A stretch of 20,512 bases of DNA from a virus. Position 1 is the first letter of the stretch; each line of letters starts with the position of its first letter. The position numbers and the translations under genes were made by a program. The stretch spans positions 1-20,512 of the IMG/VR virus record IMGVR_UViG_3300049846_000151; one strand, 5' to 3'. The notes below the pieces were generated by a model that was not told the DNA's origin, did no database searches, and worked only from the letters and a program-made list of their open reading frames with translations. This document shows positions 2,156 to 17,613 of the stretch, in pieces.

Positions 2156-2507
2156 GCCCGGTCTTCCGGCGCCATTCCCGGGCGATGGAGGACATGAACT
2201 CGGGGTTCGTTTTGAATACGCTGGCGAATGAGGACAGGTTGTGACCGTTGGCGACGACGGGCTCGAGCATTAGCGACACAACAGCGAACCTCATTGCCGC
2301 CCGCTTAACGTCTGCCGTTTTGCCGTAGGGCGCGGTCCAGCAGAACTCCAAAACGAACCGCAATGCATCTGCAAGGACGGCAAAGCGCTGGTCTGTAGAT
2401 AGTTCGTCCCAATCGGGCACAGATATTGGCTCTTCCTGCTCTGTTACAGGCAGTTCCGCAGCCTCGCTTGTGCCGTCCCACTTAACTACGACGGTTTTGT
2501 CAGCCAC
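2082..2507 (-). CDS. Small helix-turn-helix DNA-binding protein, divergent
   Basis: This is the only leftward gene I accept in the window; it fills an otherwise empty gap between terminase and gpW. The 141-residue protein has an acidic N-terminus, a helical middle, and a segment at about 89-119 (NLSSFASVFKTNPEFMSSIA, then R-E-W-R-R-K-T-G-L-K) laid out like a helix-turn-helix. It ends in a basic tail (ARSRPGRPKRRP) suited to DNA contact. It starts with GTG and has no visible Shine-Dalgarno sequence. Its 3' end is antisense to the last 74 bases of the large terminase. A divergent promoter region and a copy of the CTGAAATTCAGC palindrome lie just upstream, so autoregulation and control of the late genes is a reasonable inference. 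It could instead be a small-terminase-like or host-derived regulator. The protein does not look like a mirror-frame shadow, but coding support is moderate. Confidence 0.68.
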   Translation of the reverse strand: MADKTVVVKWDGTSEAAELPVTEQEEPISVPDWDELSTDQRFAVLADALRFVLEFCWTAPYGKTADVKRAAMRFAVVSLMLEPVVANGHNLSSFASVFKTNPEFMSSIAREWRRKTGLKWPANHCGARYARSRPGRPKRRP

Positions 2508-2568
2508 TTTTGCACTGTATCAGCAATGCGCTTGCAATACAAGCGTCTGAAATTCAGCATGTAATTGG
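2508..2568. promoter_or_regulatory. Divergent intergenic region with candidate promoters
   Basis: This is the only divergent gap in the window and so the obvious place for promoters. Leftward, TTGTAT (2542-2537) and TACAGT (2519-2514) are separated by 17 bases. Initiation would fall at about the GTG start of the regulator, giving an almost leaderless message and fitting the missing ribosome site. Rightward, TTGCAC (2510-2515) and TGCAAT (2533-2538) are also 17 bases apart but match the consensus poorly. Neither promoter is better than suggestive, and phage late promoters may not use the host consensus. Confidence 0.35.
2547..2558. promoter_or_regulatory. Palindromic repeat CTGAAATTCAGC, copy 1
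   Basis: The core CTGAA-A-TTCAG is an inverted repeat with a single-base centre. This copy lies 10 bases before the ATG of the gpW-like gene and 39 bases upstream of the start of the divergent helix-turn-helix gene. The same 12 bases recur exactly at 9071 and 17602. The symmetry and position suit an operator for a dimeric regulator, but a role as an RNA hairpin near the start codon is not excluded. Confidence 0.6.
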
Positions 2569-2853
2569 ATGGCTGTCGACTATTTTATCGGCTGGACACA
2601 GGTCGAACTCGAGACCGAGCTGCGTCGCAGCCAGGAGGAGTTGGCGCGGGGGAAGTCCATTACCCAGGCGTCCGCCGGCGACTCCTCGTTCCAGTTCAAG
2701 CTGGAGCAGACCATTCGGGAGCGGATTTCCATGCTGCTTTTCAAGCTGAACCAGCTGGACCCGGACACCTATCCCACGTCGAGCACCCGGCCAATCCGCA
2801 GAACCCAAGTCGTGTTTCCTGCCACGTTTGGTGAGGCCCCGGCAGACGAGTGA
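2569..2853 (+). CDS. Head-completion protein, gpW-like
   Basis: The 94-residue protein sits between the large terminase and the portal, exactly where lambda has gpW, which enters the head after packaging and forms the site for tail attachment. The N-terminal helix (TQVELETELRRSQEELARGK, residues 10-29) is followed by a turn with ASAGDSS and a second helix ending in LNQLDPDTYP. This helix-hairpin-helix layout is common to gpW-like head-tail joiners; the proline- and threonine-rich C-terminus is extra. Its ATG follows the palindromic repeat closely and lacks a good Shine-Dalgarno sequence. The stop is one base before the portal ATG, so the two are coupled. The assignment is by context and helix pattern. 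Confidence 0.78.
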   Translation: MAVDYFIGWTQVELETELRRSQEELARGKSITQASAGDSSFQFKLEQTIRERISMLLFKLNQLDPDTYPTSSTRPIRRTQVVFPATFGEAPADE

Positions 2854-2854
2854 T

Positions 2855-4369
2855 ATGCCGACAGAACCCGTCCAAGTAACCCCCGGCTACCGGGTCATTG
2901 ATCGGCGCGGCAAGATGCCGTGGGCGGGACATTCTGCTCCGAACAGGATGATCGAGGGGGCCACGCCCACTACCCAGCGAGCGCGGATCCCGCAGCTCGA
3001 CCAGGACATGCACCGGAACGTGTCCGCGATGGGCCGGAAGCAGCTGCTCACGCTTGGGCGCTGGCTCTTTTGGAACTTCCCGGCTGTGTCTGGAGCCATT
3101 CTCGAGCAGGCAATGCTGGCGACCGAGAACTTCAAGCCGCAGTATTACGGTGAGAGTAAGCGGTGGGGCGATAAGGCCGAGGAGTATCTGCTCAACTGGG
3201 AGAAGACAGCTGACATCGCTGGTTGGCCCTATGACATGGACTACTACCGGAACAACCTGGTGATCCATGAGCTTAGGGACGGCGACGTTGGGACCATAAT
3301 GACTCGGGGTGAGGGTGGAGTGCCGAGGATCCAGGTCATTGCCGGCCACCGCATCTACAACCCGACCGGAGAGCCTTTTGTCCGCGGTGGTCCGTTCGAT
3401 GGTTCGCGGATTTGTGATGGCGTGATCATCGATGACTACCGGGCTCCGATTGCGTATCGGGTGGTCGATGAGGACGGCGAATCGTTCACGGACATCCCGG
3501 CGTCGAACATGTTCCTGTCGTTTACGCCAAAGGCGTGCGACCAGGTTCGTGGCATTTCCGCTCTGGCCACTGCTGTTTTCGACTGGCAGGACATCAAAGA
3601 GTCCAGGCACTACGAGTTGATCGCACAGAAGGCCGCCAGTGCGGTTGCGTTGATCGAGGAGAACGAGGCTGGCGAAGCTGACCCGGCTGATGGGATTATC
3701 AAGACTGCCGCAACATTCGATTCTTCCGGCAACAAAACCGCACTGGACACGCAAGAGGTGGCTGGGGGTCTTTACCGCTATTTCAAGGCTGGGACGAACG
3801 CCAAGCTGCAGGCTTTCAGCTACGACAGGCCAGGCACCAGCGTCCAGCAATACCAAGAGACCATTATCCGAGACGCATTCCAGGGTATGGAGTGGTCATA
3901 CTTCTTCAGCCACGACCCGTCCAAGATTGGCGGTGCATCGATGCGCGTGGTTGTCGAGAAGATCAACCGCGTCATACGAAAGCGGCAGAAGATGGTGTCG
4001 CAGGCGATGGCACGCCTGCACGGGTGGGTGATCAGCGTGGCCGTCCTGCGCGGCGAGCTGCCGTTCAACAAGGACTGGTGGAAGTGGGAATATCAGCTGC
4101 CGCCCGAGATCACCGCTGACAAGAAATACGACAGTGATGTCGACCTGCAGGAATACGAGGCCAAGTTTACCACGCTGAGGGACATCTGCGCCCGGCGCGG
4201 CAAGTATTGGGAGGAAGTCCAAGACCAATACCTCCTCGAGCAGAAACGGCTTCAGGAAAAGGCAGAGGAGATGGGCGTTGCAGTCCCTGGTGTGGCTATG
4301 CCAGAAGATCCAGAATCAGAGGATCCTGAAGCTGAAACGGAGGACGAAAATGAAGCAAGCAAGGATTAG
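2855..4369 (+). CDS. Portal protein, lambda (gpB) family
   Basis: The 504-residue protein forms the ring at one head vertex through which DNA enters and leaves and to which terminase and then the neck bind. Family features include the early segment of alternating basic helices leading to ALGRW-like FPAVSGAILEQ (about 75-92), the RDGDVGTI strand (about 142-149), the QVIAGHRIYNP segment (about 160-170), a loop with a wing around FTPKACDQVRGIS, and a long C-terminal helix region. The tail is very acidic (repeated E-D-P-E). I chose ATG at 2855, one base after the gpW stop; an in-frame TTG at 2828 would add nine residues overlapping gpW and is less likely. The 3' end overlaps the protease start by 20 bases. 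Confidence 0.93.
   Translation: MPTEPVQVTPGYRVIDRRGKMPWAGHSAPNRMIEGATPTTQRARIPQLDQDMHRNVSAMGRKQLLTLGRWLFWNFPAVSGAILEQAMLATENFKPQYYGESKRWGDKAEEYLLNWEKTADIAGWPYDMDYYRNNLVIHELRDGDVGTIMTRGEGGVPRIQVIAGHRIYNPTGEPFVRGGPFDGSRICDGVIIDDYRAPIAYRVVDEDGESFTDIPASNMFLSFTPKACDQVRGISALATAVFDWQDIKESRHYELIAQKAASAVALIEENEAGEADPADGIIKTAATFDSSGNKTALDTQEVAGGLYRYFKAGTNAKLQAFSYDRPGTSVQQYQETIIRDAFQGMEWSYFFSHDPSKIGGASMRVVVEKINRVIRKRQKMVSQAMARLHGWVISVAVLRGELPFNKDWWKWEYQLPPEITADKKYDSDVDLQEYEAKFTTLRDICARRGKYWEEVQDQYLLEQKRLQEKAEEMGVAVPGVAMPEDPESEDPEAETEDENEASKD
4339..4343 (+). promoter_or_regulatory. Shine-Dalgarno site that fixes the protease start
   Basis: GGAGG lies six bases before ATG 4350, inside the end of the portal gene. 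It supports this start over the TTG at 4278, which would add 24 residues that merely read the portal's acidic tail in another frame. Confidence 0.7.
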
Positions 4370-5246
4370 CTCTTTTGCGGTGGCCAACGGCAACGTCAAC
4401 CGGGACTCCGGGATGATCATGGGCGTGTCGGTCATTACGGCTGGCGTCGTGCGCGGCCATGGAATGTTTGCCGACGAAACCACCATCGCCCAGGTCTACG
4501 GACTGATGAAGGAGATGGGAACCGTCAAGGTCAAGGCCGACCACTACAGTGGATTCGACAAGATAGTCGGCGCACTGGTTAACCCGACCATCGACGGCGA
4601 CCGTGTGCGTGCCGACTTCCAGCTCATCCAGGCACATGAGATGTATCCAGTGATTCTCGAGCTGGCTGAAAAACAGCCTGAGACGTTCGGTTTTAGTATC
4701 GCCTTCAGCGGTGTTCCTGAAGAGCGCGACAAGATGCTATACGCAAGGGCATCAGAGCTTTACAGCGTGGATTTGGTGGATTCGCCCGCCGCCAATCCGT
4801 CCGGTCTGTTCGAGGGCGGCCCTGAAATTAACCCTATACATAGGAACAAGATGATCGACCAGATCAAAGAACTGTTGGGGTTTGCCGCCAAGACCAACGA
4901 GAGTTTGTCGGCGCTGCAAGCCGAGGTCGCCAAGGTTGTTAGCCTCGAGGCGAAAAACAAGGAACTGTCGGACGCTTTGGCTGCGAAATCCGCTGAGTGC
5001 GCCGAGATCCAGGCCAAGCTGGACGCCGCCAACAAGGCTGCGGTGTCCACTGAGGAGCTGGCATCGAAGAAGGCCATTGAGATCACCGCTGCCCAGGGTG
5101 TGCCGCCTGTTCAGGCTGGCGCCCCGAACGCTTCCGGCAAGGATCTGCTGGAGCAGCTTGAGTCCATCGTGGACTCCAACGAGCGGACGGCCTTTTTCCG
5201 CAAGCACCGCAACGAACTGCTCGCCCTTCGTCGGGCGCGTAAATAA
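4350..5246 (+). CDS. Prohead protease fused to scaffold domain
   Basis: The 298-residue protein has two parts. Residues 1-155 look like a herpesvirus/HK97-type head maturation protease. A histidine lies in VKADHYSG (His65) followed by KIVGAL. A serine lies in ETFGFSIAFSG (Ser116). The domain closes with YARASELYSVDLVDSPAANP at 131-150, the ending typical of prohead proteases. Residues 165-235 are a heptad-like alanine- and glutamate-rich coiled coil, followed by a flexible Pro/Gly/Ala linker and a basic C-terminus (FFRKHRNELLALRR) suited to capsid binding, as in scaffolding proteins. The protein probably guides capsid shell assembly and then digests the scaffold, possibly itself. It overlaps the portal gene and sits 28 bases before the capsid gene. 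The third catalytic residue cannot be named with certainty. Confidence 0.87.
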   Translation: MKQARISSFAVANGNVNRDSGMIMGVSVITAGVVRGHGMFADETTIAQVYGLMKEMGTVKVKADHYSGFDKIVGALVNPTIDGDRVRADFQLIQAHEMYPVILELAEKQPETFGFSIAFSGVPEERDKMLYARASELYSVDLVDSPAANPSGLFEGGPEINPIHRNKMIDQIKELLGFAAKTNESLSALQAEVAKVVSLEAKNKELSDALAAKSAECAEIQAKLDAANKAAVSTEELASKKAIEITAAQGVPPVQAGAPNASGKDLLEQLESIVDSNERTAFFRKHRNELLALRRARK

Positions 5247-5262
5247 CCGATAACAACCCCAC
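5243..5262 (+). promoter_or_regulatory. 20-base leader shared with the tail-tube gene, capsid copy
   Basis: ATAACCGATAACAACCCCAC begins inside the stop codon of the protease gene and ends 12 bases before the capsid ATG. It matches the sequence before the tail-tube gene (10872-10891) at 17 of 20 positions, with no coding reason for the match. In this copy it is followed by GGAG, eight bases before the ATG. Confidence 0.55.
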
Positions 5263-5274
5263 GGAGTACATTCT

Positions 5275-6159
5275 ATGGCGACATACACCAACCTCGACAA
5301 TGAGATCTTCGCGCAGAGTGCGCTGCAAGCGTTCACGAAGACGCTTCTGCCGCTGAGCGCTTTCTCGACCAACTTCTCGCCGGATCCGGTGCAGAAGGGC
5401 AACAACGTGCTTGTGCCGTTGATTGCTGCGCTCACGGCCACCACGTTTGGCGGCTCTTACGTCAGCACGGCTGGCAGCAAGACCGTAATCACCGTTGCCA
5501 TCAACCGGCACAAGGTGGTCCTGATCGGCCAGAGCGACCTGGACGCTGCGGGCAGTTCCGAGGCGTCCCTTGAGTCGTTCGGGTGGCAGCAGGGCCGGGC
5601 TCTTGCACAGGCCGTGCTCGAGGACATCTTTACCCTCGTAACCACTGCCAACTTCAGCATCGTCAGCACGGTCGCCTCGACGGCCTTGAACGTGCCCGAG
5701 CTGCGCAAGGCTCGGCTGGCGCTGAACCAGGCCAACTGCCCGCCCGAACCGCGCTCTGCGATCATCGACTGCGTGCCGTATGACGCGCTCCTGTCGGTGA
5801 CTAACTTCGTTCAGGCGCACATGTTCAACGACAGCCAGGTGCTGTCCGAGGGGCGGCTGATGCGGGCGCTCGGGTTCAACTTCTACGAGGTGAACTCGGT
5901 GTTCGTGTCCGGCGCGTCCATCAACGGCTTCTTCTGCCATCCGCAGGCGGTCGCGGTTGCGATGCGTTACCTGCAGCCTCAACCCGGCAACACCTACCTC
6001 AACGCTCGCCCCGTGTCGGATCCGCAGACCGGGTTCACCATGGGGCTGCGCGACTTCTTCGATAACGCGACCGGCTACCGCTACATCGCGCTCGAGGCCA
6101 ACTACGGATACAGCGCTGGCATCACCAATGCCGGGCGCATCGTCGGTCGCACTGACTAG
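5275..6159 (+). CDS. Major capsid protein
   Basis: The position directly after the protease/scaffold, the length (294 residues) and the composition (few charges, many small and beta-prone residues, no cleavable extension evident) fit an HK97-fold major capsid protein. The segment QSALQAFTKTLLPLSAFSTN near the N-terminus resembles the N-arm, and the central stretch with IGQSDLDAAG, a long helix (GRALAQAVLEDIFTLV) and later NFYEVNSVFVSGASINGFF is typical of the spine helix and P-domain. The ending, YIALEANYGYSAGITNAGRI, is the usual hydrophobic capsid C-terminus. No delta domain is apparent, because scaffolding is supplied by the upstream gene. A GGAG site lies eight bases before the ATG. Two terminators follow. 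Confidence 0.9.
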   Translation: MATYTNLDNEIFAQSALQAFTKTLLPLSAFSTNFSPDPVQKGNNVLVPLIAALTATTFGGSYVSTAGSKTVITVAINRHKVVLIGQSDLDAAGSSEASLESFGWQQGRALAQAVLEDIFTLVTTANFSIVSTVASTALNVPELRKARLALNQANCPPEPRSAIIDCVPYDALLSVTNFVQAHMFNDSQVLSEGRLMRALGFNFYEVNSVFVSGASINGFFCHPQAVAVAMRYLQPQPGNTYLNARPVSDPQTGFTMGLRDFFDNATGYRYIALEANYGYSAGITNAGRIVGRTD

Positions 6160-6182
6160 TTTACCGCATAGGTCATAACGAG

Positions 6183-6216
6183 ACAGGCGGCGTGATTGGA
6201 CCGCCTGTTTGCTTTC
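6183..6216 (+). terminator. Intrinsic terminator 1 after the capsid gene
   Basis: ACAGGCGG (6183-6190) pairs perfectly with CCGCCTGT (6201-6208) around a ten-base loop, and TTGCTTT follows. It lies 23 bases after the capsid stop. The U-run is interrupted, so termination may be partial. Confidence 0.75.
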
Positions 6217-6234
6217 CACAACCCGGGAAGTGGG

Positions 6235-6270
6235 CGGCAGCGGCACCAATCACCGCTGCCGTTTTCTTTT
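6235..6270 (+). terminator. Intrinsic terminator 2, abutting the glycosyltransferase start
   Basis: CGGCAGCGG (6235-6243) pairs with CCGCTGCCG (6253-6261) as a nine-base, almost all G-C stem, followed by TTTTCTTTT (6262-6270). The U-run ends at the base before ATG 6271. This is the stronger of the two hairpins. Together they should cut transcription of the next genes from the capsid side unless it is overridden. Confidence 0.82.
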
Positions 6271-8493
6271 ATGAACAATAAACTGAGCCTGTGCATGATT
6301 GTGGGCAACGTCGAGAACTACATCGACCGTTGCCTGTCCAGCTTCAAGGTAATCGCGGACGAGATCGTCGTGGTCCGCGCCATCGGCAACCAGAAACCCG
6401 ACAAGACGCTGGACATCGCCAGGGACAAGTTCGGTGCCATCACTGGGGAGTATTTCAACGCGCCGGAACACTCCGATTGGCCCCATGTGGATAGCTTTGC
6501 TGCGGCACGACAGAAGTCGTTCGACATGGCCACCAACGACTACTGCATGTGGTGCGACTCGGACGACGTTCTCGAGGCCGGAGCCGACGTTGTTCGCGAC
6601 CTGCTAGACCGAGCCGAGTTCGCGGCCTACGTGTTCCCCTACAAGATTTTCGGGCGCGGAGTCAGTGTTCCGAGGGAGCGCATGATGCTCAAGTCGTCCG
6701 GGTATTGGAAGAACCCAGTGCATGAGTGCTTCGAGTTCCACGTCAAGAACCCGACAGCAACCATGGATGACAGGGTTGTGATCACGCACCTGCCTTACTC
6801 TGGCGGCAAGGGGGACAGTCATTCGCGCAATCTGAGGATCCTGCGGTCCATTCCAGAGGATCAGATGACCGGGGGGCAATGGTATCACATGGCCGGAGAG
6901 CTTGCCGCCATCGGCAAGGAGACTGAGAGCCTCGAGGCGTGCAAGAAGGCACTGGCTGACCCGACGCTTGGGAAGCCGGAGAAATACGAGATCTACATGA
7001 ACCTGGCGCGGATCTCGGAAGAGCCAAACACCCGCGCCGCACTGCTCCACCAAGCCTACGCCGCAGACCCGGAGAGGCGCGAGGCGTTGGGGCTTCTCGC
7101 GCACCATGAGATGGACTACGGGACCCCTCGAGCTGCACTGGCCTATGCGCGGCAGATGATGGCGACGATCCGGCCCAATAACGGGGACTGGAACGAGCGT
7201 GCCGGCGCCTATGGTTGGCTTGGAAACGACATCTACTGCCAGGCCCTGCGCTGCAACGGGGCCTTTGAGGCTGCCGAGGACATCAGGAAGGCAACCTTGG
7301 CGGAAGCGGGTGGCGCTAGGATTACGCTCATACACGCCACACGCGGTAGGCCGCAGCGTGCCGCCATCGCCAGGAAGCTGTGGCTGGACATGGCAGCGCA
7401 GCCGGAGCGGATAGAGCACATCTTCTGCATCGATGCGGATGATAAGGAATCTTACCCGCTGCGCCGGATGCACCATGTCATGGTGCCTTATCCTGACGCC
7501 GGGTGTGTGATGGCGTGGAACGTCGGGGCTGGGATGTCGTCCGGCCAGGTTCTGGTTCAGATGTCCGACGACTTTGTTCCGCCGGCACAGTGGGACAACC
7601 TAATCTGCGACCGCATTGGCGACTTGAACAAGGAGGCGGTGCTGGCTGTCAGCGACGGTCTGCGCGCCGACAAGCTGATGTGCATGGCGATCTGCACAAG
7701 GAAGTATTGGCAGCGCGACTACCTGCTGCTGCACCCGGACTTCAAGTCCATGTATTCGGACAACTGGTTTACGGACCAGGCATACAAGCGAGGGTGCGTC
7801 ATCGAGGCCCGGGACATCGTGTTCCAGCATGATCACCCGATCCTGCACGGCAAGTGGGACGAGACCTACGTGAAACAGAACGCGCCCGAGCGTTACGAGG
7901 ACGGAGCCAAGATCCTGCAGCGGTTGCGGGATGGCAAGGACTGGTCCGCTTGCCACGGCTGGTTCAACTACTATCCGCTGTATTGGCGCCAGTCCCAGTT
8001 ACTGAAGGACGGAGACTCCATTGTTGAGATCGGCGTGTGGCAGGGGCGCTCGCTGATCTACATGGCGCAACGCCTGAAGCAGATGGGCAAGAAGGTGAAG
8101 ATCTACGCCGTCGACACGTTCAAGGGTGATCCTGGAGTCGAGGAGCACATGAACACCGTGGCCAGCCATGGCGGAAGCATCCGTGCGGCATTCGAGGCCA
8201 ACCTGAAGCGGTGCGAGGTGGACGACATGGTCGAGATCATCGAGAGCGATAGCGCTGCTGCGGCATCGAGGCTGGAGGACAAGTCGGTGGCGTTCTGCTT
8301 CATCGACGCCTCCCACGACTACGACAGCGTCAAAAAGGACGTGGCCGCATGGCTTCCCAAGATTAAGACCGGCGGAACCATGTCTGGACACGACGCCCAG
8401 CATGAGCCGGTTCGGAAGGCTGTCAGAGAAGTTCTCGGCGGGAAGGCGAGGATCTTCGACGTGGTCTGGATCGCAGAAAACCTGAACACATAA
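6271..8493 (+). CDS. Fused glycosyltransferase-glycosyltransferase-methyltransferase
   Basis: The 740-residue protein has three parts. Residues 1-195 are a family 2 glycosyltransferase: KLSLCMIVGN at the start, a DEIVVVRAIG strand, WCDSDDV at 94-100 as the nucleotide-sugar/metal site, and WKNPVHE at 146-152. Residues 200-345 are helical and resemble tetratricopeptide repeats. Residues 350-540 are a second GT-A-like domain (ITLIHATRGRP at 351-361, FCIDADDKES at 385-394, MSDDFVPP at 431-438). Residues 580-740 are a class I SAM methyltransferase of the Methyltransf_24 kind (VEIGVWQGRS at 585-594, AVDTFKGD at 613-620, CFIDASHDYDSV at 676-687, GGTMSGHD at 701-708). It probably builds and methylates a glycan; the acceptor is unknown. 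The ATG follows a terminator U-run directly and has no Shine-Dalgarno sequence; an in-frame ATG at 6295 would cut into the first strand. The stop overlaps the next gene as TAATG. Confidence 0.88.
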   Translation: MNNKLSLCMIVGNVENYIDRCLSSFKVIADEIVVVRAIGNQKPDKTLDIARDKFGAITGEYFNAPEHSDWPHVDSFAAARQKSFDMATNDYCMWCDSDDVLEAGADVVRDLLDRAEFAAYVFPYKIFGRGVSVPRERMMLKSSGYWKNPVHECFEFHVKNPTATMDDRVVITHLPYSGGKGDSHSRNLRILRSIPEDQMTGGQWYHMAGELAAIGKETESLEACKKALADPTLGKPEKYEIYMNLARISEEPNTRAALLHQAYAADPERREALGLLAHHEMDYGTPRAALAYARQMMATIRPNNGDWNERAGAYGWLGNDIYCQALRCNGAFEAAEDIRKATLAEAGGARITLIHATRGRPQRAAIARKLWLDMAAQPERIEHIFCIDADDKESYPLRRMHHVMVPYPDAGCVMAWNVGAGMSSGQVLVQMSDDFVPPAQWDNLICDRIGDLNKEAVLAVSDGLRADKLMCMAICTRKYWQRDYLLLHPDFKSMYSDNWFTDQAYKRGCVIEARDIVFQHDHPILHGKWDETYVKQNAPERYEDGAKILQRLRDGKDWSACHGWFNYYPLYWRQSQLLKDGDSIVEIGVWQGRSLIYMAQRLKQMGKKVKIYAVDTFKGDPGVEEHMNTVASHGGSIRAAFEANLKRCEVDDMVEIIESDSAAAASRLEDKSVAFCFIDASHDYDSVKKDVAAWLPKIKTGGTMSGHDAQHEPVRKAVREVLGGKARIFDVVWIAENLNT

Positions 8494-9074
8494 TGAGCGC
8501 ACAAGACATCATTTTATCAGTCCTCACCCCGGCTGTGCCGTCTCGCTGGGAACAGCTTCGCGACCTTATGGGCGAGCTGTGCCGGCAGATTGGAGACCGC
8601 CCCGTCGAGCACCTTGTGTTCGTGGACAACAAGCGCAGAACGGTTGGAGAGAAGCGTGACGCTCTGCTGCGTGCCAGCCGGGGTAGATACGTGGCCTTTT
8701 GTGACGACGACGACTGGGTTGCGCCGAACTACATCGACAGGATTCTGGCCGGCATCGCCACGGGCGCAGCCGTGGTGACTTTTCGTCAGGAAGCCAGTGT
8801 CGATGATTTGGTGAGCACGGTTGAGTTCAAGCTGGCCAACGACAACGGTCCATTCATCCCGGGTGGAGTCACCAAACGGTCGGCCTGGCACATCTGCGCC
8901 TGGCGCCGGGATTACGCGATCCAGTCCAAGTTCCCGGCGACCAACTATGGGGAGGACTGGTCTTGGGCAGAGTCTTTGTGCCGGATGAAGTGCCTCGAGG
9001 AGCACCACATCCCAGAGGTGCTGCACTATTACCGGCACTCGAGCAAACACACCGAGGCGCCCCCACTAAGCTGA
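8493..9074 (+). CDS. Family 2 glycosyltransferase, small
   Basis: The 193-residue protein is a compact GT-A-fold glycosyltransferase. It begins ILSVLTPAVPSRWEQL, has TVGEKRDALL before a GRYVAFCDDDDWV segment (64-76) whose aspartates bind the nucleotide-sugar and metal, and contains NYGEDWSWAE (151-160), the usual place of the catalytic acidic residue. The ending HYYRHSSKH is also common in this group. It is coupled to the preceding fused enzyme by a TAATG overlap, so both probably act on the same glycan. The stop codon lies within copy 2 of the palindromic repeat. The sugar donor and acceptor cannot be read from the sequence. Confidence 0.88.
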   Translation: MSAQDIILSVLTPAVPSRWEQLRDLMGELCRQIGDRPVEHLVFVDNKRRTVGEKRDALLRASRGRYVAFCDDDDWVAPNYIDRILAGIATGAAVVTFRQEASVDDLVSTVEFKLANDNGPFIPGGVTKRSAWHICAWRRDYAIQSKFPATNYGEDWSWAESLCRMKCLEEHHIPEVLHYYRHSSKHTEAPPLS

Positions 9075-9082
9075 AATTCAGC
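9071..9082. promoter_or_regulatory. Palindromic repeat CTGAAATTCAGC, copy 2
   Basis: This copy is extended to GCTGAAATTCAGCCAAT, which shares the CCAAT flank with copy 3. It begins in the stop codon of the small glycosyltransferase and lies 43 bases before the GTG start of the head-closure-like gene, at the point where the structural operon resumes after the glycan cassette. Confidence 0.6.
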
Positions 9083-9091
9083 CAATTAGAG

Positions 9092-9119
9092 AGGGGTAAA
9101 GCCGACCCCTAAACTCGGC
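9092..9119 (+). other. Two mutually exclusive hairpins before the neck genes
   Basis: AGGGGT (9092-9097) can pair with ACCCCT (9105-9110), while GCCGA (9101-9105) can pair with TCGGC (9115-9119). The two stems share bases, so only one can form. No U-run follows either, so this is not a classical terminator; a switch or leader structure is possible but unproven. Confidence 0.35.
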
Positions 9120-9125
9120 CACTTT

Positions 9126-9506
9126 GTGCCTGAATCCGTCGCCGTCAAAGACTTAACGCTTGGACTCCAAGACCTTGAGTGGGTCATGGGGACTCCGACG
9201 TTTACGTGGAAGGGCGCCGAGGTTGACTGCGTTCCATCGTCGCTGCGTTACGGGACGGTCCTGTCCGTTGGCGGGTTTGAATACAGCGTCCAGCTCACGC
9301 TTTACGTCAGGAAAAGTCACTGGCTCACGGTGGACACGACCTTGGTTACTGTGGATTCCATCCTCTACACCAGCGACAACGACATGGTCGTGCCGGTGAC
9401 GGGACGGAAATGCACGTTCCGGGGGAAGGTCTACAGGGTGGTGGGATGCCGCGAGTCTGGGCCGCGCAGCCATTACGAACTGGATCTGGCCGACTCCAAG
9501 CAATGA
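9126..9506 (+). CDS. Head-closure (neck) protein, gpFII-like
   Basis: The 126-residue, beta-rich protein is the first structural gene after the glycan cassette. The order head closure, minor tail, tail terminator, tube is usual in siphoviruses. Alternating strands with GGFEYSVQLTLYV and, near the end, GRKCTFRGKVYRVVGCRES and HYELDLAD follow the pattern 'g..i.i.g..Yrv.......g....l.L' common in small head-closure and head-tail joining proteins. Such proteins seal the filled head and connect it to the tail. The start is uncertain: GTG 9126 has no Shine-Dalgarno sequence, and an in-frame ATG at 9186 would give 106 residues starting MGTPTFTWKG. The stop overlaps the next ATG (ATGA). Function is inferred from position and strand pattern. 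Confidence 0.65.
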   Translation: MPESVAVKDLTLGLQDLEWVMGTPTFTWKGAEVDCVPSSLRYGTVLSVGGFEYSVQLTLYVRKSHWLTVDTTLVTVDSILYTSDNDMVVPVTGRKCTFRGKVYRVVGCRESGPRSHYELDLADSKQ

Positions 9507-10417: not shown

Positions 10418-10872
10418 GCAGTGAGATCACAGCACTGTGCGAAAGGGCAGCCGCGGAATATCTGCGTACGCTCACTCTTACCGTGCCGTCAACCAACATC
10501 TACGAGGGGATATACAACGAGATCGCGCTCGAGAACGAAACGACCGAGGTGATCAAGGATCTTCCTCGCATCGAGTGCGCCTGCCAGTCGGCAAACCAAT
10601 ACGCATGGCCAGCCAACAACTGGGAGTGCGAGCTGATGGTTGTCCTTACCGTGAGCGGAGATGACAACACGTCAGCAGAGTTCCGAACCATGGCCGGCGA
10701 GCTGTCAGACGCACTTGCCGACACGGACTTGCCGTCACTGCTCAGTTCATCGTTGTCGGGGTTCACATGCTTCCACGTCGTCCCAGGCACCCAAGGTTGG
10801 AGCGTGGATGGCAGGAACTGGCAGATGACCACAGGTCTGACCGCATTCTGTGCTCCGGCTGACATCAGTTGA
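10414..10872 (+). CDS. Tail terminator-like protein
   Basis: The 152-residue protein lies immediately before the tail-tube gene, the usual place for the protein that caps the tube and joins it to the head (lambda gpU and its relatives). It opens with a helix of a length seen in that family, has a strand ending in DLPRIECAC, an alternating strand WECELMVVLTVSG, a helix FRTMAGELSDALADTDL, and a last strand WQMTTGLTAFCA. This alpha-beta order fits tail terminators. Start and stop both overlap or adjoin neighbours: ATG sits in the previous TGA, and the stop touches the shared 20-base leader. No direct motif proves the call. Confidence 0.68.
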   Translation: MSSEITALCERAAAEYLRTLTLTVPSTNIYEGIYNEIALENETTEVIKDLPRIECACQSANQYAWPANNWECELMVVLTVSGDDNTSAEFRTMAGELSDALADTDLPSLLSSSLSGFTCFHVVPGTQGWSVDGRNWQMTTGLTAFCAPADIS

Positions 10873-10891
10873 TAACCGTTAACTACCACAC
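10872..10891 (+). promoter_or_regulatory. 20-base leader shared with the capsid gene, tail-tube copy
   Basis: ATAACCGTTAACTACCACAC starts at the last base of the previous stop codon and ends three bases before the tail-tube ATG. It is the partner of the element at 5243-5262. Here no Shine-Dalgarno sequence separates it from the ATG, so it may act in translation itself or carry a promoter. Confidence 0.55.
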
Positions 10892-10894
10892 ACT

Positions 10895-11356
10895 ATGGCA
10901 ACACAAATCGCAAAAGCTCACGTTTTTGGGCTCGGGACTTTCGTCTGCAAGACCATTGCCGGCGTCACTATCGGCGGCAACTCGACAGGTGGCAGCCTGT
11001 CCCACGAATCCGAGGTGGACAAGATCAAGGGACTAGACGGAGAGGTAACCAGCCTCATCGCGCACGGGGACAGCTTGGCGTGCGAGTTCAACATGATCCC
11101 AGAGGCGACGACGCAAGCCGGAGCCAAGGTGGCCTGCAATCTTCCGGCCACGCTGACTGGAGTGTCCATCGGTGGACTTCCGATTGTTGCAAGTGGACCG
11201 TTCTCTGACGCACTGAACACAAACGGCAGCAACACTCAGCCTTGGGTCTATGAGGGCGGCGGGAAGATCAACCTGTCCAACTCTGAGAAGTGGACAATGA
11301 CTTTGCCGCTCAAGCGTTATTACGGAATCACCGACACGACCGGCATCACGACCTAA
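10895..11356 (+). CDS. Major tail tube protein
   Basis: The 153-residue protein is beta-rich, low in charge and rich in Gly, Ser and Thr, as expected for the subunit of a siphovirus tail tube. Features include GGSLSHESEVDKIKGLDGEV early on, an extended loop, a strand ACEFNMIPEA, and the closing WTMTLPLKRYYGI. Its place between a terminator-like gene and a chaperone/tape-measure pair supports the role. The shared leader suggests high expression, parallel to the capsid. It has no Shine-Dalgarno sequence. The stop overlaps the next start as TAATG. A minor tail protein is the alternative. Confidence 0.72.
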   Translation: MATQIAKAHVFGLGTFVCKTIAGVTIGGNSTGGSLSHESEVDKIKGLDGEVTSLIAHGDSLACEFNMIPEATTQAGAKVACNLPATLTGVSIGGLPIVASGPFSDALNTNGSNTQPWVYEGGGKINLSNSEKWTMTLPLKRYYGITDTTGITT

Positions 11357-11901
11357 TGAGGTCAGACTTCCAGCGGGCGTTTATCCGTCCTGAGACCAGG
11401 GTGTTTGGGCTCGAGCTACAGCCATTGACGGTTGGGCACCTGCTTCACCTGTTTCGATCTGATCTGCCGCCATTCGCCTCTGCCGGGCCAGCAGAGCTGT
11501 TGCAAGCCGTGTTCTACTGTTCACAGCCGTGGCGCGACAGTGAGCGCGACAAGAACAAGTGGTGGGCAAGGCTGTTCTGCAGGTTCTGGTGGTCGCGTGT
11601 TAAGCGGATGAAGTATCTTGACCACCTGGCCGCGTTCAATGACTACATCACGGACGGGCTATACATCCCGCAGACCAAGCACGACCCGCAGACTGCAAGG
11701 ACTGTCGAGTCGCCGTCACCTGTGCGGTTACTTGCCGCCGGAATGGCGTACTTTGGGATGTCTTATGACGAGGTGTTGGACGCCCCGGTGAAAGAGCTGT
11801 GCGCCATTTACATTGCCTACATGGAAATGGAGGGCCGCGCAGAGCTGTGGACGGAGGACGATGAGCAGCTGTGGCTGGCGGCACAGGGGAGGAACAACTA
11901 A
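11356..11901 (+). CDS. Tail assembly chaperone-like protein
   Basis: The 181-residue protein lies between the tube and tape-measure genes, where tail assembly chaperones are usual. The start is ATG 11356 in the TAATG overlap. The N-terminus carries LELQPLTVGHLLHLFRSDLP, the 'L.pLtlgH...L' pattern seen in such proteins, and the middle is tryptophan- and arginine-rich (KWWARLFCRFWWSRVKRM). A later helix reads LLAAGMAYFGMSYDEVLD, and the end is acidic (WTEDDEQLWLAA). The motor chaperones G and GT of lambda arise by frameshift; I see no slippery heptamer at the end of this gene, so a single product is expected. Function is inferred by position. Confidence 0.62.
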   Translation: MRSDFQRAFIRPETRVFGLELQPLTVGHLLHLFRSDLPPFASAGPAELLQAVFYCSQPWRDSERDKNKWWARLFCRFWWSRVKRMKYLDHLAAFNDYITDGLYIPQTKHDPQTARTVESPSPVRLLAAGMAYFGMSYDEVLDAPVKELCAIYIAYMEMEGRAELWTEDDEQLWLAAQGRNN

Positions 11902-12602
11902 TGGCCCTGCTGCGTCTGATGGGCGTGTTCGGCATGGACACGCGCCCGTTCCATTCTGCGATGGGACAGGCGGAAACCCGCGTTGTCAGGGCACGCGGCA
12001 AGATCGGGTCAGGCATCAGCACACTGGTCGGCGGCATCGGAATCCGGTCCATGCTGACAATGGTGACGCAGCTAGGTGACACCGCAGACGAAATCAGGGA
12101 GAAGTTCGACAAGGTTGGAATCAACATCTCAGAGGAGGAGATCAAGAGAATCGTTGAGGTCAACAACATGATCGAGCAGACCGGGATGCGCCTAAAGAAG
12201 GCGATGGTCTCGGTTGTTGATTGGATTTACAGATACGTTGTCAAACCGTTCATCGATGGTGTTGAGTTGATTTCTAGGATGTGGGGTGCATTTAGTGCCG
12301 GCGGGCTCGAGGCAATGTATAGGGAGGTTGACGCGGTGCTCGAGGACAAGCAAAAGGAAGAAGAGGAGACAGCAAAGGCTGTCGAGGAGAAGATGAAGCC
12401 GGAAGAGAAGGATAAGAGTCGCGGGCAGGCCAAAGAGGATGCTAAGATCCTTTTGACCGGCGCCGTTCGCGGTGCCGGCGAGCTTGCCGCAATCGGCGGG
12501 TTCAGCCAGTTCGACGCCGGCCCTAATGGTGTTCAGAGCAAGCAGCTTCGCGAGCTGCAGCGCATCACCAAGAACACGGAGTCTCTAAAGATCAACCTAT
12601 GA
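11901..12602 (+). CDS. Short tape-measure-like protein
   Basis: The 233-residue protein starts at ATG 11901 (TAATG overlap). Its N-terminus, MGVFGMDTRPFHSAMGQAET, resembles tape measures, which begin with a 'g.D...f..al......' helix. Hydrophobic stretches lie around 38-58 and 103-118. A long, highly charged coil spans about 139-180 (KQKEEEETAKAVEEKMKPEE and onward). The end has ELAAIGGFSQF and QLRELQRITKNTESL, a pattern I associate with the C-termini of tape measures. If fully helical it would span about 35 nm (233 x 0.15 nm), far shorter than the lambda tape measure of over 800 residues. It may be a true short tape measure or an internal tail protein. The stop overlaps the next ATG. Confidence 0.6.
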   Translation: MALLRLMGVFGMDTRPFHSAMGQAETRVVRARGKIGSGISTLVGGIGIRSMLTMVTQLGDTADEIREKFDKVGINISEEEIKRIVEVNNMIEQTGMRLKKAMVSVVDWIYRYVVKPFIDGVELISRMWGAFSAGGLEAMYREVDAVLEDKQKEEEETAKAVEEKMKPEEKDKSRGQAKEDAKILLTGAVRGAGELAAIGGFSQFDAGPNGVQSKQLRELQRITKNTESLKINL

Positions 12603-13450
12603 GCACCCTTGTAGGTGAAGCCACACTAAAAGTCGGCAGCTCGCTGGTCTATGACCCGGTGCGCGGCCCAGAGCTGCGAGAGACCTACAAAGGAACCGAG
12701 ACCGGACTAAACGCCCTAGCCAGCGCGTTCTCGTTGTCTGGCAACCGCACCGAGATGTCCAATGACGGCGGCACATGGACCCTGGTTGTCACGTTTGCAA
12801 CCGAAACCAACGACGGGTCTGGTTCCGAGACGCCGGTAGACAAGTGGGATATATCGAGGGACTACTACCTCGAGCCAATCTGGGCGCATCCTAATGTGCA
12901 TTCGCTGGCCAAGAACATGAACACGGCAGTGAGTGCCATGGACAACCTGGCCGCGATCCGGCGCGACATCGAGAACGCATTGAACGGTAAGATACCGACA
13001 TCACAGGACAACAGTGGGAACTCGGTGACTTACGAGGAATACACAGAAGGGCCTGTTCCGCCAACGTATTTTGAGACTTCTCCAGCACCATGGTCTGCAG
13101 CAAAGCTGCGCCTCTACAAGCTGATGGTGCGCGGGCTCGAGTCGTTTGAGACCGAACGGTGCGTGATCAGCCGGGTTCGCTCGTTCAGCATCGGCTATCC
13201 AACCAGGATGAAGCTGGACGCAATCCCGGTTGTGTATACAACGAATAGCCTGATCTCGACGTTCGATGTGCCTGCTGTGATTCAGGCGCAGCTGCCAGAC
13301 GAACCTTCATCTGACCAGACACCGGACGGGACGCAGTGGGCGTGGAAGTTGAGGAAGGATCATTCCACGATCAACTACTACGGCAAGGTCGAAGAGACAA
13401 GGGAATGGGTCTATTCCGCCTGGTCAACCGACGTCTACAACGTGATCTGA
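12599..13450 (+). CDS. Tail tip/distal tail protein, unclassified
   Basis: The 283-residue protein follows the tape-measure-like gene and precedes the large tail proteins, the usual place for distal tail or baseplate hub proteins. It is beta-rich with many Asn, Thr and Ser. The segments EMSNDGGTWTLVVTFATET, EPIWAHPNVHSLAKNMN and PVVYTTNSLISTFDVPAVIQ alternate strands and loops, and the end reads WVYSAWSTDVYNVI. I recognise no family motif. The overlap of ATG with the previous stop (ATGA), and of its own stop with the next start (TGATG), place it in the same operon. Confidence 0.58.
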   Translation: MSTLVGEATLKVGSSLVYDPVRGPELRETYKGTETGLNALASAFSLSGNRTEMSNDGGTWTLVVTFATETNDGSGSETPVDKWDISRDYYLEPIWAHPNVHSLAKNMNTAVSAMDNLAAIRRDIENALNGKIPTSQDNSGNSVTYEEYTEGPVPPTYFETSPAPWSAAKLRLYKLMVRGLESFETERCVISRVRSFSIGYPTRMKLDAIPVVYTTNSLISTFDVPAVIQAQLPDEPSSDQTPDGTQWAWKLRKDHSTINYYGKVEETREWVYSAWSTDVYNVI

Positions 13451-13686
13451 TGCCAACGCCAGTTCCACAAAAGCTACCAGAGGTGACCGGGACAGGATCC
13501 TTGGCTAAAGGGTTCCGAATGGTCTTCAGAACTGTGAACGCACTGATTGAATGCGTTGAGAGCCTGCAGCCAAGACCTGGCGCCGATGATGAATACTTCA
13601 GCCACACCGGCATCGGCACAACCAGGAAGTCAAGATCGGCGGGCTCCGGCACCAGCAATGGAGACGGAACCGCTCGATGGGCCTGA
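13450..13686 (+). CDS. Small protein of unknown function between tail genes
   Basis: The 78-residue frame starts at ATG 13450 in a TGATG overlap and ends ten bases into the next gene. The protein has a proline-rich N-terminus, a helical part (SLAKGFRMVFRTVNALIECV) and a Gly/Ser/Thr-rich end. Tight coupling on both sides and the absence of any other frame support it being expressed. It may act with the large tail protein. I do not recognise a family. Confidence 0.6.
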   Translation: MPTPVPQKLPEVTGTGSLAKGFRMVFRTVNALIECVESLQPRPGADDEYFSHTGIGTTRKSRSAGSGTSNGDGTARWA

Positions 13687-16600
13687 CCTTCACCACCGCG
13701 CCGACCGTTGAGGCCGGCGACCGCATCACGTCGGAGCAGTTCTCGCTGCTGGCGCGGGCGTTCAATGACCGCATCAAGTCCGGCGTGGCTGACGGTGCGT
13801 GGCGGATCGCGTATTACAATGTCAACCTTTTCCGGCAGGTCCGCAATCCGGCGCAGGGTGGGTGGGTGTTCCCGACACAGGCCGAGTTCTTCGACCTTTA
13901 CCAGCACCTGGCACCGGAGAACGACCCGCAGATAACGTGGCCGGTTACGGGCCCGGGCGAATACGAGGGCGCCAATCTTGCCAACCCGATGATGCAGTTC
14001 GTGTTCGGCGTGGCGCCGGATCTGGACTCGGAGGACATCCGCCTAGCTGACGATGTGTCGTGGTCGTTGGGGTCGACTCCGACAACTCTTGGCGACTGGT
14101 GGGAGCTGGGCAAGCATCAGCGCGGCGGGTATGACCCCAGCACGGGCGGTCAGGTGACGCCGGCATGGGACGCGGCAACGTCGTTTTTCAGGATCTCGCA
14201 GCCCTACTGGTCACCCCACGGCAAAAGCTACGGTGGGTTCTTTCCGACGCCGACGATACTTAGCAACAACTGCGACTGCGCTTCTGGTGGAGGCTGCGGA
14301 TCTGATCCCGACTTGGGCGCTGGAGTGCCATCATACCAGATCAAGTTCACGGCGCTGCGTGACGACGTGACCTACGGCGGCAGCTACGGCACGGCATCCG
14401 GTACGCCGCAGGTCGTTACCTATCCAGGGTCGTGCCCAGATTGGACTGCCGACAGTGCGTCCGGCCACGTTCTGGCAATCGCGCGGTACCCGTTTGCTTA
14501 CTACGTGTATGTAAACGACGGTGCCGGCGGCGTCGATGTCGAGGTGCTAAGGACGGCAGACTGGCTTGAAGGGCCATACACCGGACAGGGTTACCTTGCC
14601 CACGCGGACGGCCAGCAACTGCACCGGGCCGTCCATGCGTTCGTATCCGAGTTCTGCGGGACTTCTGCCCAACGGGATCCCGACACCTACAGGATCGAGA
14701 CGCTTGCGGCAGACTTCCAGGCGTTCTTTACCAGTCAGCACCAGCTATCCCCAGCCAAAGGTTCACAGGTTGGGAATGAGATCATTCTGGATTACCCAAG
14801 CGTTACGTTCCAGGGGCCAACCGTTGATCCTGGGTTCGGTAGCTGGAACACGGGCGGCACCGGATACCAGATTGCCGAGGACTTTGTGCTGGGCGGCATC
14901 TACGCCAAGGCCGAGAAGCTGTCGGCACCTGTCACGCTGACAGTCTACAACGGCACCACAGCCATCGAGACGTTGACGTTGACACCGGACGCTGACGGGT
15001 TTGCGGAAGCGTTGGCAACGGTTAGGAACGGCGGCGAATACAACGTCAAGGTTGGTCTGAACAGTCGGGCCAGCTTTGACGACGGGACAGGTTATATCCG
15101 CGTCGAGATTTCGGAGCTGTATGGATACCGTCCGCAGTATTGGGACGCTTACCTGCTCTGCCGGTTCGCGGCCACGGCTGGTGGCGATGCGTTTAACGGT
15201 GGCGTGGACGGTTCGGGTGTGGACTACACCACCGCCAAGCAGATCACGGATGATTACCTTTACTATGGCTGTCTGGTCAACAGATCCGGCGCCGAGGGTC
15301 CACGCACCATTCTGGAATGGGTGACGGATAACCCCGTGTATCAGGCTGCCAGGCGAATGTGCCGGGAACAGTTCCGGCTGATCCGCCGCAACAACTTTGA
15401 TTCCGTCGAGGTGACAGGTGGTAAGACGGTCCTGTATTTCAAGCGATACGCCTACGGGATGGATCGGGCGCGGGCCGATATGTTCGACGGCATCGCGCCA
15501 CCTATTGATCCGGTAGCCTCTGGTGAGCTGGAGGTTGGCGAGACCTACGTGGTGCAGTCCACGGACGGCACCGGTACCATCGTCTATGACGGCAACTGGC
15601 TGACCAATGGTGACACGTTTACAGTCACCACAGAGACGGAATACCAGACCAACGGCGACGCGCTAGTCTATGTCTACGACGGCATCCGAACGGCAGCTAG
15701 GAAGAAGGGATATAGCAACGAGTGGGTCATGTTTCTGGAAACCAAGTGCTACCATCTGAGCCCGACCAGCATCTGGAAGCCGGAAGCATATTCGGATTAT
15801 TTCGCGTTCAACAACCGCTGCCACTTTTACAGCGCCACAGCCGACGACGAGGTGCGCCGGTTCATGGCGTACAATCACAGCACCGAACTGGACGGAGATT
15901 ACAACCCGACCCTGAACGACCTGCAACTACAGGCCGTCATGGTGTCACCCGAGGCGCCGACCGGGTACAACTATGTTGACGACACAAACCGCCTGTATGG
16001 ATCCGCAGACTTCTATTCATCCTGCCGAATCTATGAAAAGCCATACGTTGTCGAATCCTGCACCGTGGACCGTTTTGGCGCAGATGCAGTGGTTAAGGTC
16101 ACACTCACGGAGAGGCTGCGAAGTCACCCGGACGCACCCGCTACGGTTGACAGAACCGTTGCCAACTGGGACACCACCGAAAAGGACAACCTCGGTCTGG
16201 AGGACTACCGCACCGACGACAACGCGGTGAGGGAATACGCGCTCTGGAACTACGACAACAACGAGAACTGCACGCAAAAGACTGGCGACGCCGGCACGGG
16301 ATCCGGCGTGTTCGGCCTGGCTGACAACCCGTGGGGATCCTGCTTCCCGACATTCTTCTTCGTCAAACTGGTGCCGGAACCCTACGAGGACGGTAACAAC
16401 ACGCAGCAGACCACTGACACGCGCTGCACGGTTCGGTCGTTCCAGCAGATGGAAACCTACCTGAAAGCGATGTGCGAGGGCTACGTGGACGGCACGACAA
16501 GCCTGGACATCATCTGCGACTCTGGGACCGGCGGCCTGTTCGATTACACTTTCGAGAATCTGTGCTTTGAGGCGTTCGGCGGCACATCGGTCGGTGCGTT

Positions 16601-17396
16601 CAGCCTGACAGACAGGTCTGATGAACCCGCCGGCTTTGGTCCGCTGCCGAACACGAAGATGTATGCGGACGTTTTCAACCGTCTATCCAGTGCCGTCAAC
16701 CTGTTAACCAAGGCGCGGCTAGAGGTGCCGGTGACGTTCGATTACCGCACAGTTACCTATCCGCGCACGTACCGGGAGGAGTCGTTCACCGATACGGACG
16801 GTTCCAGTGGGTGCAGCACCTCCAGCTTTTATGCCGCCATCCGCGATAGTGCCGGGCCGGTGGACGCAGTGGGCTCGCCTTCATACAGCTCATGGTCAAC
16901 TTGGACATCAGTTAGCGCCAGCAAGTCCACCATTGCCGACGCCTGCCCGTCAAAGCTGGCCGGCGACAGGGTGGACGTGGAATACAAGGTCAGTATAGAC
17001 ACCGCCTTTGCCAACGCCGTCCCGAGCCATATCCAAGACCTAGTGGATAACCTGTTTACCGGGTTCGTGGCCACACAGACGGACAACCAAAACCGGGATT
17101 TCAGGGAAGCTGTCACGGCGGGCAGCGGGGATTCATGCAGCGGCACCGCAGACCACTGGCACGTCGGAACCGACTATTACCGCTGGACGCTGGACGACGT
17201 AATCACCAGCACGGACTGCGTAATCATCAACTCCGGAACCCTCGTCGCGCCGGCCCTGTTAACCGCCGACTACGGTGTCGGGCACGCCGCTGGATCACCG
17301 AACGGGACTGTCTGCAACGCAGGCGGCACCAGCTCCGACCGCACCCTCGACCTGCTGACTGGATCCATCGCTTACGTGGAGGTGCCGCTAGTGTGA
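13677..17396 (+). CDS. Large cysteine-rich tail protein
   Basis: This is the largest gene in the window, 1239 residues, almost certainly a tail-tip or central-fibre protein. It is rich in Gly, Asp, Thr, Tyr and Trp, as virion proteins exposed to solvent are. The N-terminal 150 residues include several Trp/Pro segments (RNPAQGGWVFPTQAEFF). About 23 cysteines are spread along it, including a CDCASGGGC cluster near 200. Near 417-460 a beta-sandwich-like stretch begins PVTLTVYNGTTAIETLTL. A module at about 617-668 (ELEVGETYVVQSTDGTG, then VYDGNWLTNGDTFTV) matches a repeating 'GE.Y.V...g.i.Y.G..y..G..F' pattern that I recall from phage tail and adhesion proteins. No enzyme motif was recognised. 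Codon-pair use differs from upstream genes (no CTCGAG). Confidence 0.75.
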   Translation: MGLTFTTAPTVEAGDRITSEQFSLLARAFNDRIKSGVADGAWRIAYYNVNLFRQVRNPAQGGWVFPTQAEFFDLYQHLAPENDPQITWPVTGPGEYEGANLANPMMQFVFGVAPDLDSEDIRLADDVSWSLGSTPTTLGDWWELGKHQRGGYDPSTGGQVTPAWDAATSFFRISQPYWSPHGKSYGGFFPTPTILSNNCDCASGGGCGSDPDLGAGVPSYQIKFTALRDDVTYGGSYGTASGTPQVVTYPGSCPDWTADSASGHVLAIARYPFAYYVYVNDGAGGVDVEVLRTADWLEGPYTGQGYLAHADGQQLHRAVHAFVSEFCGTSAQRDPDTYRIETLAADFQAFFTSQHQLSPAKGSQVGNEIILDYPSVTFQGPTVDPGFGSWNTGGTGYQIAEDFVLGGIYAKAEKLSAPVTLTVYNGTTAIETLTLTPDADGFAEALATVRNGGEYNVKVGLNSRASFDDGTGYIRVEISELYGYRPQYWDAYLLCRFAATAGGDAFNGGVDGSGVDYTTAKQITDDYLYYGCLVNRSGAEGPRTILEWVTDNPVYQAARRMCREQFRLIRRNNFDSVEVTGGKTVLYFKRYAYGMDRARADMFDGIAPPIDPVASGELEVGETYVVQSTDGTGTIVYDGNWLTNGDTFTVTTETEYQTNGDALVYVYDGIRTAARKKGYSNEWVMFLETKCYHLSPTSIWKPEAYSDYFAFNNRCHFYSATADDEVRRFMAYNHSTELDGDYNPTLNDLQLQAVMVSPEAPTGYNYVDDTNRLYGSADFYSSCRIYEKPYVVESCTVDRFGADAVVKVTLTERLRSHPDAPATVDRTVANWDTTEKDNLGLEDYRTDDNAVREYALWNYDNNENCTQKTGDAGTGSGVFGLADNPWGSCFPTFFFVKLVPEPYEDGNNTQQTTDTRCTVRSFQQMETYLKAMCEGYVDGTTSLDIICDSGTGGLFDYTFENLCFEAFGGTSVGAFSLTDRSDEPAGFGPLPNTKMYADVFNRLSSAVNLLTKARLEVPVTFDYRTVTYPRTYREESFTDTDGSSGCSTSSFYAAIRDSAGPVDAVGSPSYSSWSTWTSVSASKSTIADACPSKLAGDRVDVEYKVSIDTAFANAVPSHIQDLVDNLFTGFVATQTDNQNRDFREAVTAGSGDSCSGTADHWHVGTDYYRWTLDDVITSTDCVIINSGTLVAPALLTADYGVGHAAGSPNGTVCNAGGTSSDRTLDLLTGSIAYVEVPLV

Positions 17397-17398
17397 GG

Positions 17399-17605
17399 AT
17401 GCCGGTTACAAGGAACGCCCGTTTCCAGCCACGGCAACCCAAGCCGAGGCGCATCCGTGGACTGGGTGACGTAGTGGCTGAGGTGGCGGAACCGATTAAG
17501 CGACAGGCACTAAAGCACGGTCCACAGTGGGTTAAGGAGGCGTTGAGAAACTGTCGGTGTGAGGCGCGGAGGGAGTTCCTGAACCGGCTCGTCCCGTTTT
17601 CCTGA
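17399..17605 (+). CDS. Small basic protein with C-terminal cysteine pair
   Basis: The 68-residue protein starts at ATG 17399, just after the large tail protein's stop; GTGAGG before it includes the stop and a GAGG ribosome site, and GTG 17393 is an in-frame alternative. It is rich in Arg/Pro at the start (TRNARFQPRQPKPRRIRG), then has GDVVAEVAEPIKRQALKHGP and ends with NCRCEARREFLNRLVPFS. This pattern of a helical core followed by a cysteine pair and 'R...LNRLvP' reminds me of short phage proteins placed after tail genes, of unknown function. A zinc- or metal-binding knuckle is possible, but two cysteines alone would not complete it. The stop codon falls in palindrome copy 3. Confidence 0.72.
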   Translation: MPVTRNARFQPRQPKPRRIRGLGDVVAEVAEPIKRQALKHGPQWVKEALRNCRCEARREFLNRLVPFS

Positions 17606-17613
17606 AATTCAGC
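17602..17613. promoter_or_regulatory. Palindromic repeat CTGAAATTCAGC, copy 3
   Basis: This copy shares the CCAAT flank with copy 2. It begins at the stop of the preceding small gene and ends 18 bases before the ATG of the 138-residue gene, with AGGAAG in between. As with copies 1 and 2, it stands at the head of a new rightward gene group. Confidence 0.6.

Follow-up and report, generated by a model that had tools for sequence, protein, structure and literature searches.

Repeated Upstream Sites in Described Phages

In P2-like phages, the late-gene activators Ogr/Delta switch several late operons through inverted-repeat sites lying upstream of them; Ogr is a zinc-finger protein with no helix-turn-helix (HTH), and its sites are found near −55 of mapped late promoters, with no proximity to the start codon. 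The stoperators, another group of dispersed phage sites, are placed in short intergenic regions. In cluster A mycobacteriophages, the stoperators are repressor sites dispersed across the phage genome; they lack symmetry, and the repressor binds them as a monomer (PMC9283540). In cluster K mycobacteriophages, repeated words (SAS/ESAS) stand just upstream of the start codons of a subset of genes; SAS is a 13-bp asymmetric word of the GGGATAGGAGCCC type with AGGAG, located 3–7 bp from the start and present in 11–19 copies at non-structural genes, and about half of the SAS are accompanied by an inverted repeat, regarded as a site for a protein, the consensus of which varies from one subcluster to another (PMC3203893).

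A further case is the isolated Verrucomicrobia phage P8625 (KP792622, L195), whose genome paper contains no palindrome, promoter or regulation terms (PMC4642752). In its genome, GTATCCAnTTATTGGATAC-like palindromes of ~19 bp, about GTATCCA-N5-TGGATAC, were found just before six structural starts, at 5426, 9634, 10750, 11267, 15573 and 17515, and one further copy lies inside a gene (8089). TTGACA is located upstream of several of these palindromes, at some starts with a distance of about 36 nt to the start codon. For P8625_13, the start in the annotation (9620) is probably too far upstream.

Gene Layout of the Window

The window, that is, the whole stretch of DNA analysed here, is the 20,512-base virus fragment IMGVR_UViG_3300049846_000151, from a Verrucomicrobia-type phage. 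Its terminase is of the GpA type, with the widest match among named phages to P8625, and relatives of its portal occur in one Verrucomicrobium MAG and in 23 of the 289 genomes of its phylum. The genes are arranged in the order of small terminase-like gene, terL, leftward gene, gpW-position gene, portal, protease-like gene and capsid, followed by a glycosyltransferase/methyltransferase pair, neck, tail genes and fibre.

Three rightward blocks are relevant here. The first is headed by a small head gene (2569–2853, plus strand) between terminase and portal, which the earlier note called gpW-like; its position agrees with this name, but profile searches with it gave no hit. The rest of the block (2828–6159, plus strand) consists of the portal (from about 2828), a protease/scaffold-like gene and the major capsid protein. 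After the capsid gene there is a terminator-like hairpin, ACAGGCGG-N10-CCGCCTGT followed by TTGCTTT (6183–6208, plus strand), which fits separate transcription of the blocks. The second block is headed by a head-closure/neck-like gene (9126–9506, plus strand; phrog_161, a weak match at E 0.032), and the third by a small gene (17632–18048, plus strand), next to which stands the fibre-like gene (18051–20510).

As a separate observation, the region directly 3′ of the capsid gene (6196–9074) holds a glycosyltransferase–methyltransferase fusion gene and a second glycosyltransferase. Dozens of related phages (L035–L052, L113–L173) have the same pair after their capsid gene, mostly at 53–62% identity, and the conservation of these genes exceeds that of most structural genes.

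The Palindrome and Its Placement

The record contains three exact copies of the 12-mer CTGAAATTCAGC and no others, starting at 2547, 9071 and 17602, and each copy is located in one of the rare intergenic gaps ahead of a rightward gene, as the earlier note had reported. Its description as an exact palindrome needs to be qualified: the symmetry is that of an odd palindrome of 11 bp, CTGAA-A-TTCAG, whose central A is unpaired, and the 12-mer itself is not self-complementary. Copy 1 (2547–2557, plus strand, with C at 2558) lies in a 61-bp divergent gap, directly beside a second inverted repeat, CGCTTG-CAATA-CAAGCG (2529–2545), which is present once. Copy 2 (9070–9082, plus strand) is the only one whose arms are lengthened, to GCTGAA-A-TTCAGC, after which comes CAAT; copy 3 (17602–17612, plus strand) is followed by CCAAT. 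The CCAAT flank is therefore indeed common to copies 2 and 3, and copy 1 is followed by GCATGTAATTGG instead. Also correct are the positions of the upstream stop codons within these two copies: the TGA of the motif ends the glycosyltransferase gene in copy 2 (9072–9074) and a short ORF in copy 3 (17603–17605), but the latter ORF (17402–17605) is weakly supported, being missed by a codon-based caller.

From the start of the motif to the start codon there are 22 nt in copy 1 (start at 2569), 55 nt in copy 2 (9126) and 30 nt in copy 3 (17632). Only 11 nt (copy 1) and 19 nt (copy 3) separate the end of the motif from the start codon, which leaves no room for a sigma-70 promoter downstream of it, and a search around the three copies gave no match to the sigma-70 consensus. 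On the basis of this search and this geometry, a sigma-70 promoter reading was dropped; a site overlapping the promoter or the early transcribed region fits the proximity to the start.

Like SAS of cluster K, the window word is a short repeated word upstream of starts that may contain the upstream stop codon. Unlike SAS, it is palindromic, lacks an SD core, lies 22–55 nt away and precedes structural genes, so it is not a member of that class. It also differs from the stoperators in its near-symmetry, in its number and in its early/late context. In P8625, also a Verrucomicrobia phage, a phage-specific palindrome likewise precedes head, neck, tail and fibre starts, but the word there is different, about 19 bp long and nearer to the start codon.

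The Leftward Gene and Its Helix-Turn-Helix Protein

The leftward gene (2082–2507, minus strand) encodes a candidate regulator of 141 aa, and its own start shares the 61-bp gap with copy 1. When the protein was searched as a single sequence, no homologue was found in viral contigs, phages, PDB, Pfam, PHROGs or NCBIfam, and a first hhalign run of the protein singly against nine sequences gave a probability of 3.9%. A profile was then built by synteny from the genes in the terL–gpW slot of the relatives, with the window protein left out of training. This profile gathers 44 members, the family being present in more than 40 related phages, and it finds the window gene at E 0.0005–0.007 over four hmmsearch rounds (27,653 frames). 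Moreover, the window protein forms a 110-residue gap-free alignment with the L031 member, 15.7 sd above shuffles, and the next closest are the HTH proteins of L061–L063 and L111, with pairwise z of 7–10. In the AlphaFold model, helices 91–97 and 102–116 form a confident HTH with pLDDT near or above 90; none of the Foldseek matches to this model was significant, many of the weak ones being LuxR-type and sigma-factor HTHs. The earlier note was thus right that the leftward gene encodes an HTH protein, and the product of 2082–2507 is a divergent member of a verrucophage HTH family. The gene context is also that of the family, which adjoins terminase and head genes and is often divergent from the small head gene. 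P8625 encodes a weak match to the family, and prophages of two host genomes (G129 and G141) encode members too.

In the family the turn is commonly, not invariably, G-V-T-K/R, whereas KTNPEF stands at the position of GVTKxA in the window protein. With the loss of this turn, the specificity has probably changed.

With regard to the slot itself, the gap between terL and gpW is a variable cargo slot in relatives. In one of them, a small gene between terminase and head genes (L056:2748–3062, minus strand) resembles the Acb2/Tad1 anti-defence hairpin domain at E 1.5e-4, below the Pfam cut-off.

A Candidate Operator for Three Late Groups

CTGAA-A-TTCAG may be a cis-regulatory DNA site just upstream of the first gene in three late (structural) groups, namely an operator for a dimeric HTH regulator, for which the product of 2082–2507 is the best candidate. 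By binding, this protein would set the transcription of all three groups (head, neck/tail and fibre), together with that of its own gene, as one regulon. To judge from the sequence, the prospects that the word is such a phage-specific operator, probably bound by this protein, are about even. Binding of the protein to the word, action as DNA rather than as RNA and the sign of the regulation are what we infer here. As in a dimeric operator, an inverted-repeat site is repeated ahead of the putatively regulated genes.

P8625 independently has a palindrome ahead of six structural genes. In addition, the phages L061–L063 and L111, whose HTH proteins rank among the closest to that of the window, have AGTTG-W-CAACT in such gaps, likewise an odd palindrome of 11 bp and with the same 5-1-5 geometry as in the window.

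Repeats of other kinds were noticed in the gaps of some relatives. In L136, the hairpin GCCGAC-TGCC-GTCGGC is repeated in gaps at 4396–4489, 6469–6569 and 10996–11020, two of its copies preceding the small head gene. Seven-base tandem repeats, for example of the GGCAATC and AAGCTCC types, occur in several gaps of L092 (12617–12700 and 18350–18395) and of L086 (549–660, 2992–3033 and 4960–5070).

The TTGAC Element of Related Phages

About 150 relative loci were scanned, and CTGAANTTCAG was absent from the gaps of all of them. The earlier note had counted lack of conservation in relatives against its own model, and for the word itself lack of conservation is what was found, though the proteins of even the nearest relatives show a likeness of only 40–73%. 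An exact search for the 16-mer CTGAAATTCAGCCAAT across IMG/VR gave 22 hits, among them several near-duplicates and many rich in A+T; as no window gene among the queries used was shared by any of the hits, these look like chance and were set aside.

What is shared is the arrangement. In about ten relatives (L067–L070, L073, L075/76, L078/79 and L084), an HTH gene likewise points leftward, away from the same small head gene, and a gap of 53–93 bp separates the two, compared with 61 bp in the window. In this gap GTTGAC lies 19–22 nt before the head gene, and copy 1 of the window lies at −22. That is to say, the arrangement of genes and gap is conserved, and the slot is occupied by another element.

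The words repeated in the gaps of each relative share TTGAC. Among non-redundant gap-led starts, 125 of 599 carry it at −24 to −18, against 7.3 expected from the upstream background, where the genes were called by a simple codon model and kinship inflates the counts though near-duplicates were removed. In the same interval, the reverse complement GTCAA and other control words showed no excess, except for TGACT, which overlaps TTGAC. The flanks carry almost no further information. By slot, TTGAC was found at gpW in 21/27, protease 7/10, fibre 3/6, neck 2/9, portal 1/25 and capsid 0/25, so it marks the heads of groups. The element was sought in host genomes as well: only 2 of 483 gap-led host starts in three genomes have it (1/224, 0/151 and 1/108), while in the prophage stretches of two of these three genomes, scored over the slightly wider window of −26 to −13, it is present at 4/10 and 4/11 starts (Fisher p about 1e-5 each). 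In unrelated phage contigs treated with the same gene caller it was found at 0/146 starts. The host genomes rule out a host signal, and the unrelated contigs an artefact of the home-made gene caller; TTGAC is therefore a phage signal. TTGAC-led genes were seen in the prophage loci L230 and L242 and in phage loci L023–L173.

The link between TTGAC and the HTH family can be considered per locus: TTGAC is present at 95/382 gap-led starts in loci with the HTH and at 2/33 in loci without it, a comparison confounded by fragments, and loci with other terminases have TTGAC with the HTH undetected. In the window itself, TTGAC leads 0/8 gap-led starts, and positional equivalence holds for copy 1 only.

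These data keep alive the main rival of the operator reading, in which the word is a start-associated element for RNA polymerase (a phage promoter box) or for the translation machinery, its palindromic look being incidental and the HTH protein unrelated or a sigma-like partner. TTGAC in the relatives is directional, keeps a near-fixed 19–23 nt from the start codon and has no partner box; this asymmetry suits recognition by RNA polymerase or ribosome better than a dimer operator, and copy 1 occupies the very slot of TTGAC. SD-like sequence is rare at TTGAC-led starts (3/126), and the weak Foldseek list includes sigma factors. Against this speak the near-symmetry of the window word and the distance to the start in copy 2 (55 nt) and copy 3 (30 nt). 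Strong translation is expected of the capsid gene, yet this gene is without TTGAC in 25/25 relatives, which argues against a general translation signal. The spacing of TTGAC is too short for a −35 box, and a −35 reading would put the start of transcription inside the gene. On balance, a start-associated element is conceivable but unlikely.

Chance, Linkers and RNA Structure

Chance could have produced the repeat most easily through A+T-rich gaps and TGA stop usage, and there are three copies only, two of them containing stop codons. In the window, two 12-mers have three copies, CTGAAATTCAGC being one of them (tied as most repeated), whereas the mean number of such 12-mers in dinucleotide shuffles is 0.1 and the maximum 1. 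With two or fewer mismatches allowed, the word has 8 matches, 3 of them being opposite-strand readings of the palindrome; the shuffles have 1.3 matches on average, and none has as many as 8. Only about 1.5% of window positions touch a gap of at least 15 nt, yet all three copies do so, which has a probability by chance of ~3e-6 if the A+T bias of gaps is left out of account. Other gaps of at least 15 nt are without the motif (5247–5274, 6160–6270 and 10873–10894). A chance repeat is thus improbable.

Still less probable is a linker at module boundaries, that is, a homologous word at group borders that aids or records phage recombination and has no regulatory role. The copies do border modules, the terL–gpW gap of relatives takes variable cargo, and the upstream stop codons fall within copies 2 and 3; however, a word present in no relative cannot serve recombination with the sampled phages, and the slot of the relatives holds a functional-looking element. 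As for an RNA hairpin or processing site in each block leader, a stem of 4–5 bp with a 3-nt loop can be drawn, but the three leaders are predicted to fold differently, and the stem appears in the minimum-energy fold of copy 2 only, so this reading is very improbable indeed.

For the operator reading, then, there are the repeat and its placement in gaps, both beyond chance, and an HTH protein recognised by profile, pairwise score and model. On the other side, there are only three copies, known from a 20.5-kb fragment, and their distances to the start vary (22, 55 and 30 nt) while the relatives keep 19–23; the absence of the word from the relatives and the negative outcomes with the sigma-70 consensus and with Foldseek also count against it. 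Related viruses keep the protein and have a different word at the same place, so the word probably acts as a late-gene switch and is not a product of chance.

Significance for Verrucomicrobia Phages

Gene control in Verrucomicrobia phages seems hardly described, and no description of such a signal in them was found in the open literature. More broadly, and tentatively, Verrucomicrobia phages may mark the heads of late groups with a phage-specific element close to the start, read by the terminase-adjacent HTH family: it would be TTGAC ~20 nt before the start in most phages and phage-specific palindromes in some, with host genes lacking it, and in the window the protein would have diverged and the element been replaced by CTGAAATTCAG. 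In this way, one odd palindrome leads to a testable system, consisting of a terminase-adjacent family of candidate late regulators and a start-proximal element. As the element is present in phages and prophages and not in host genes, it could help to find prophages, and it could also mark transcription units in metagenomic phage contigs.
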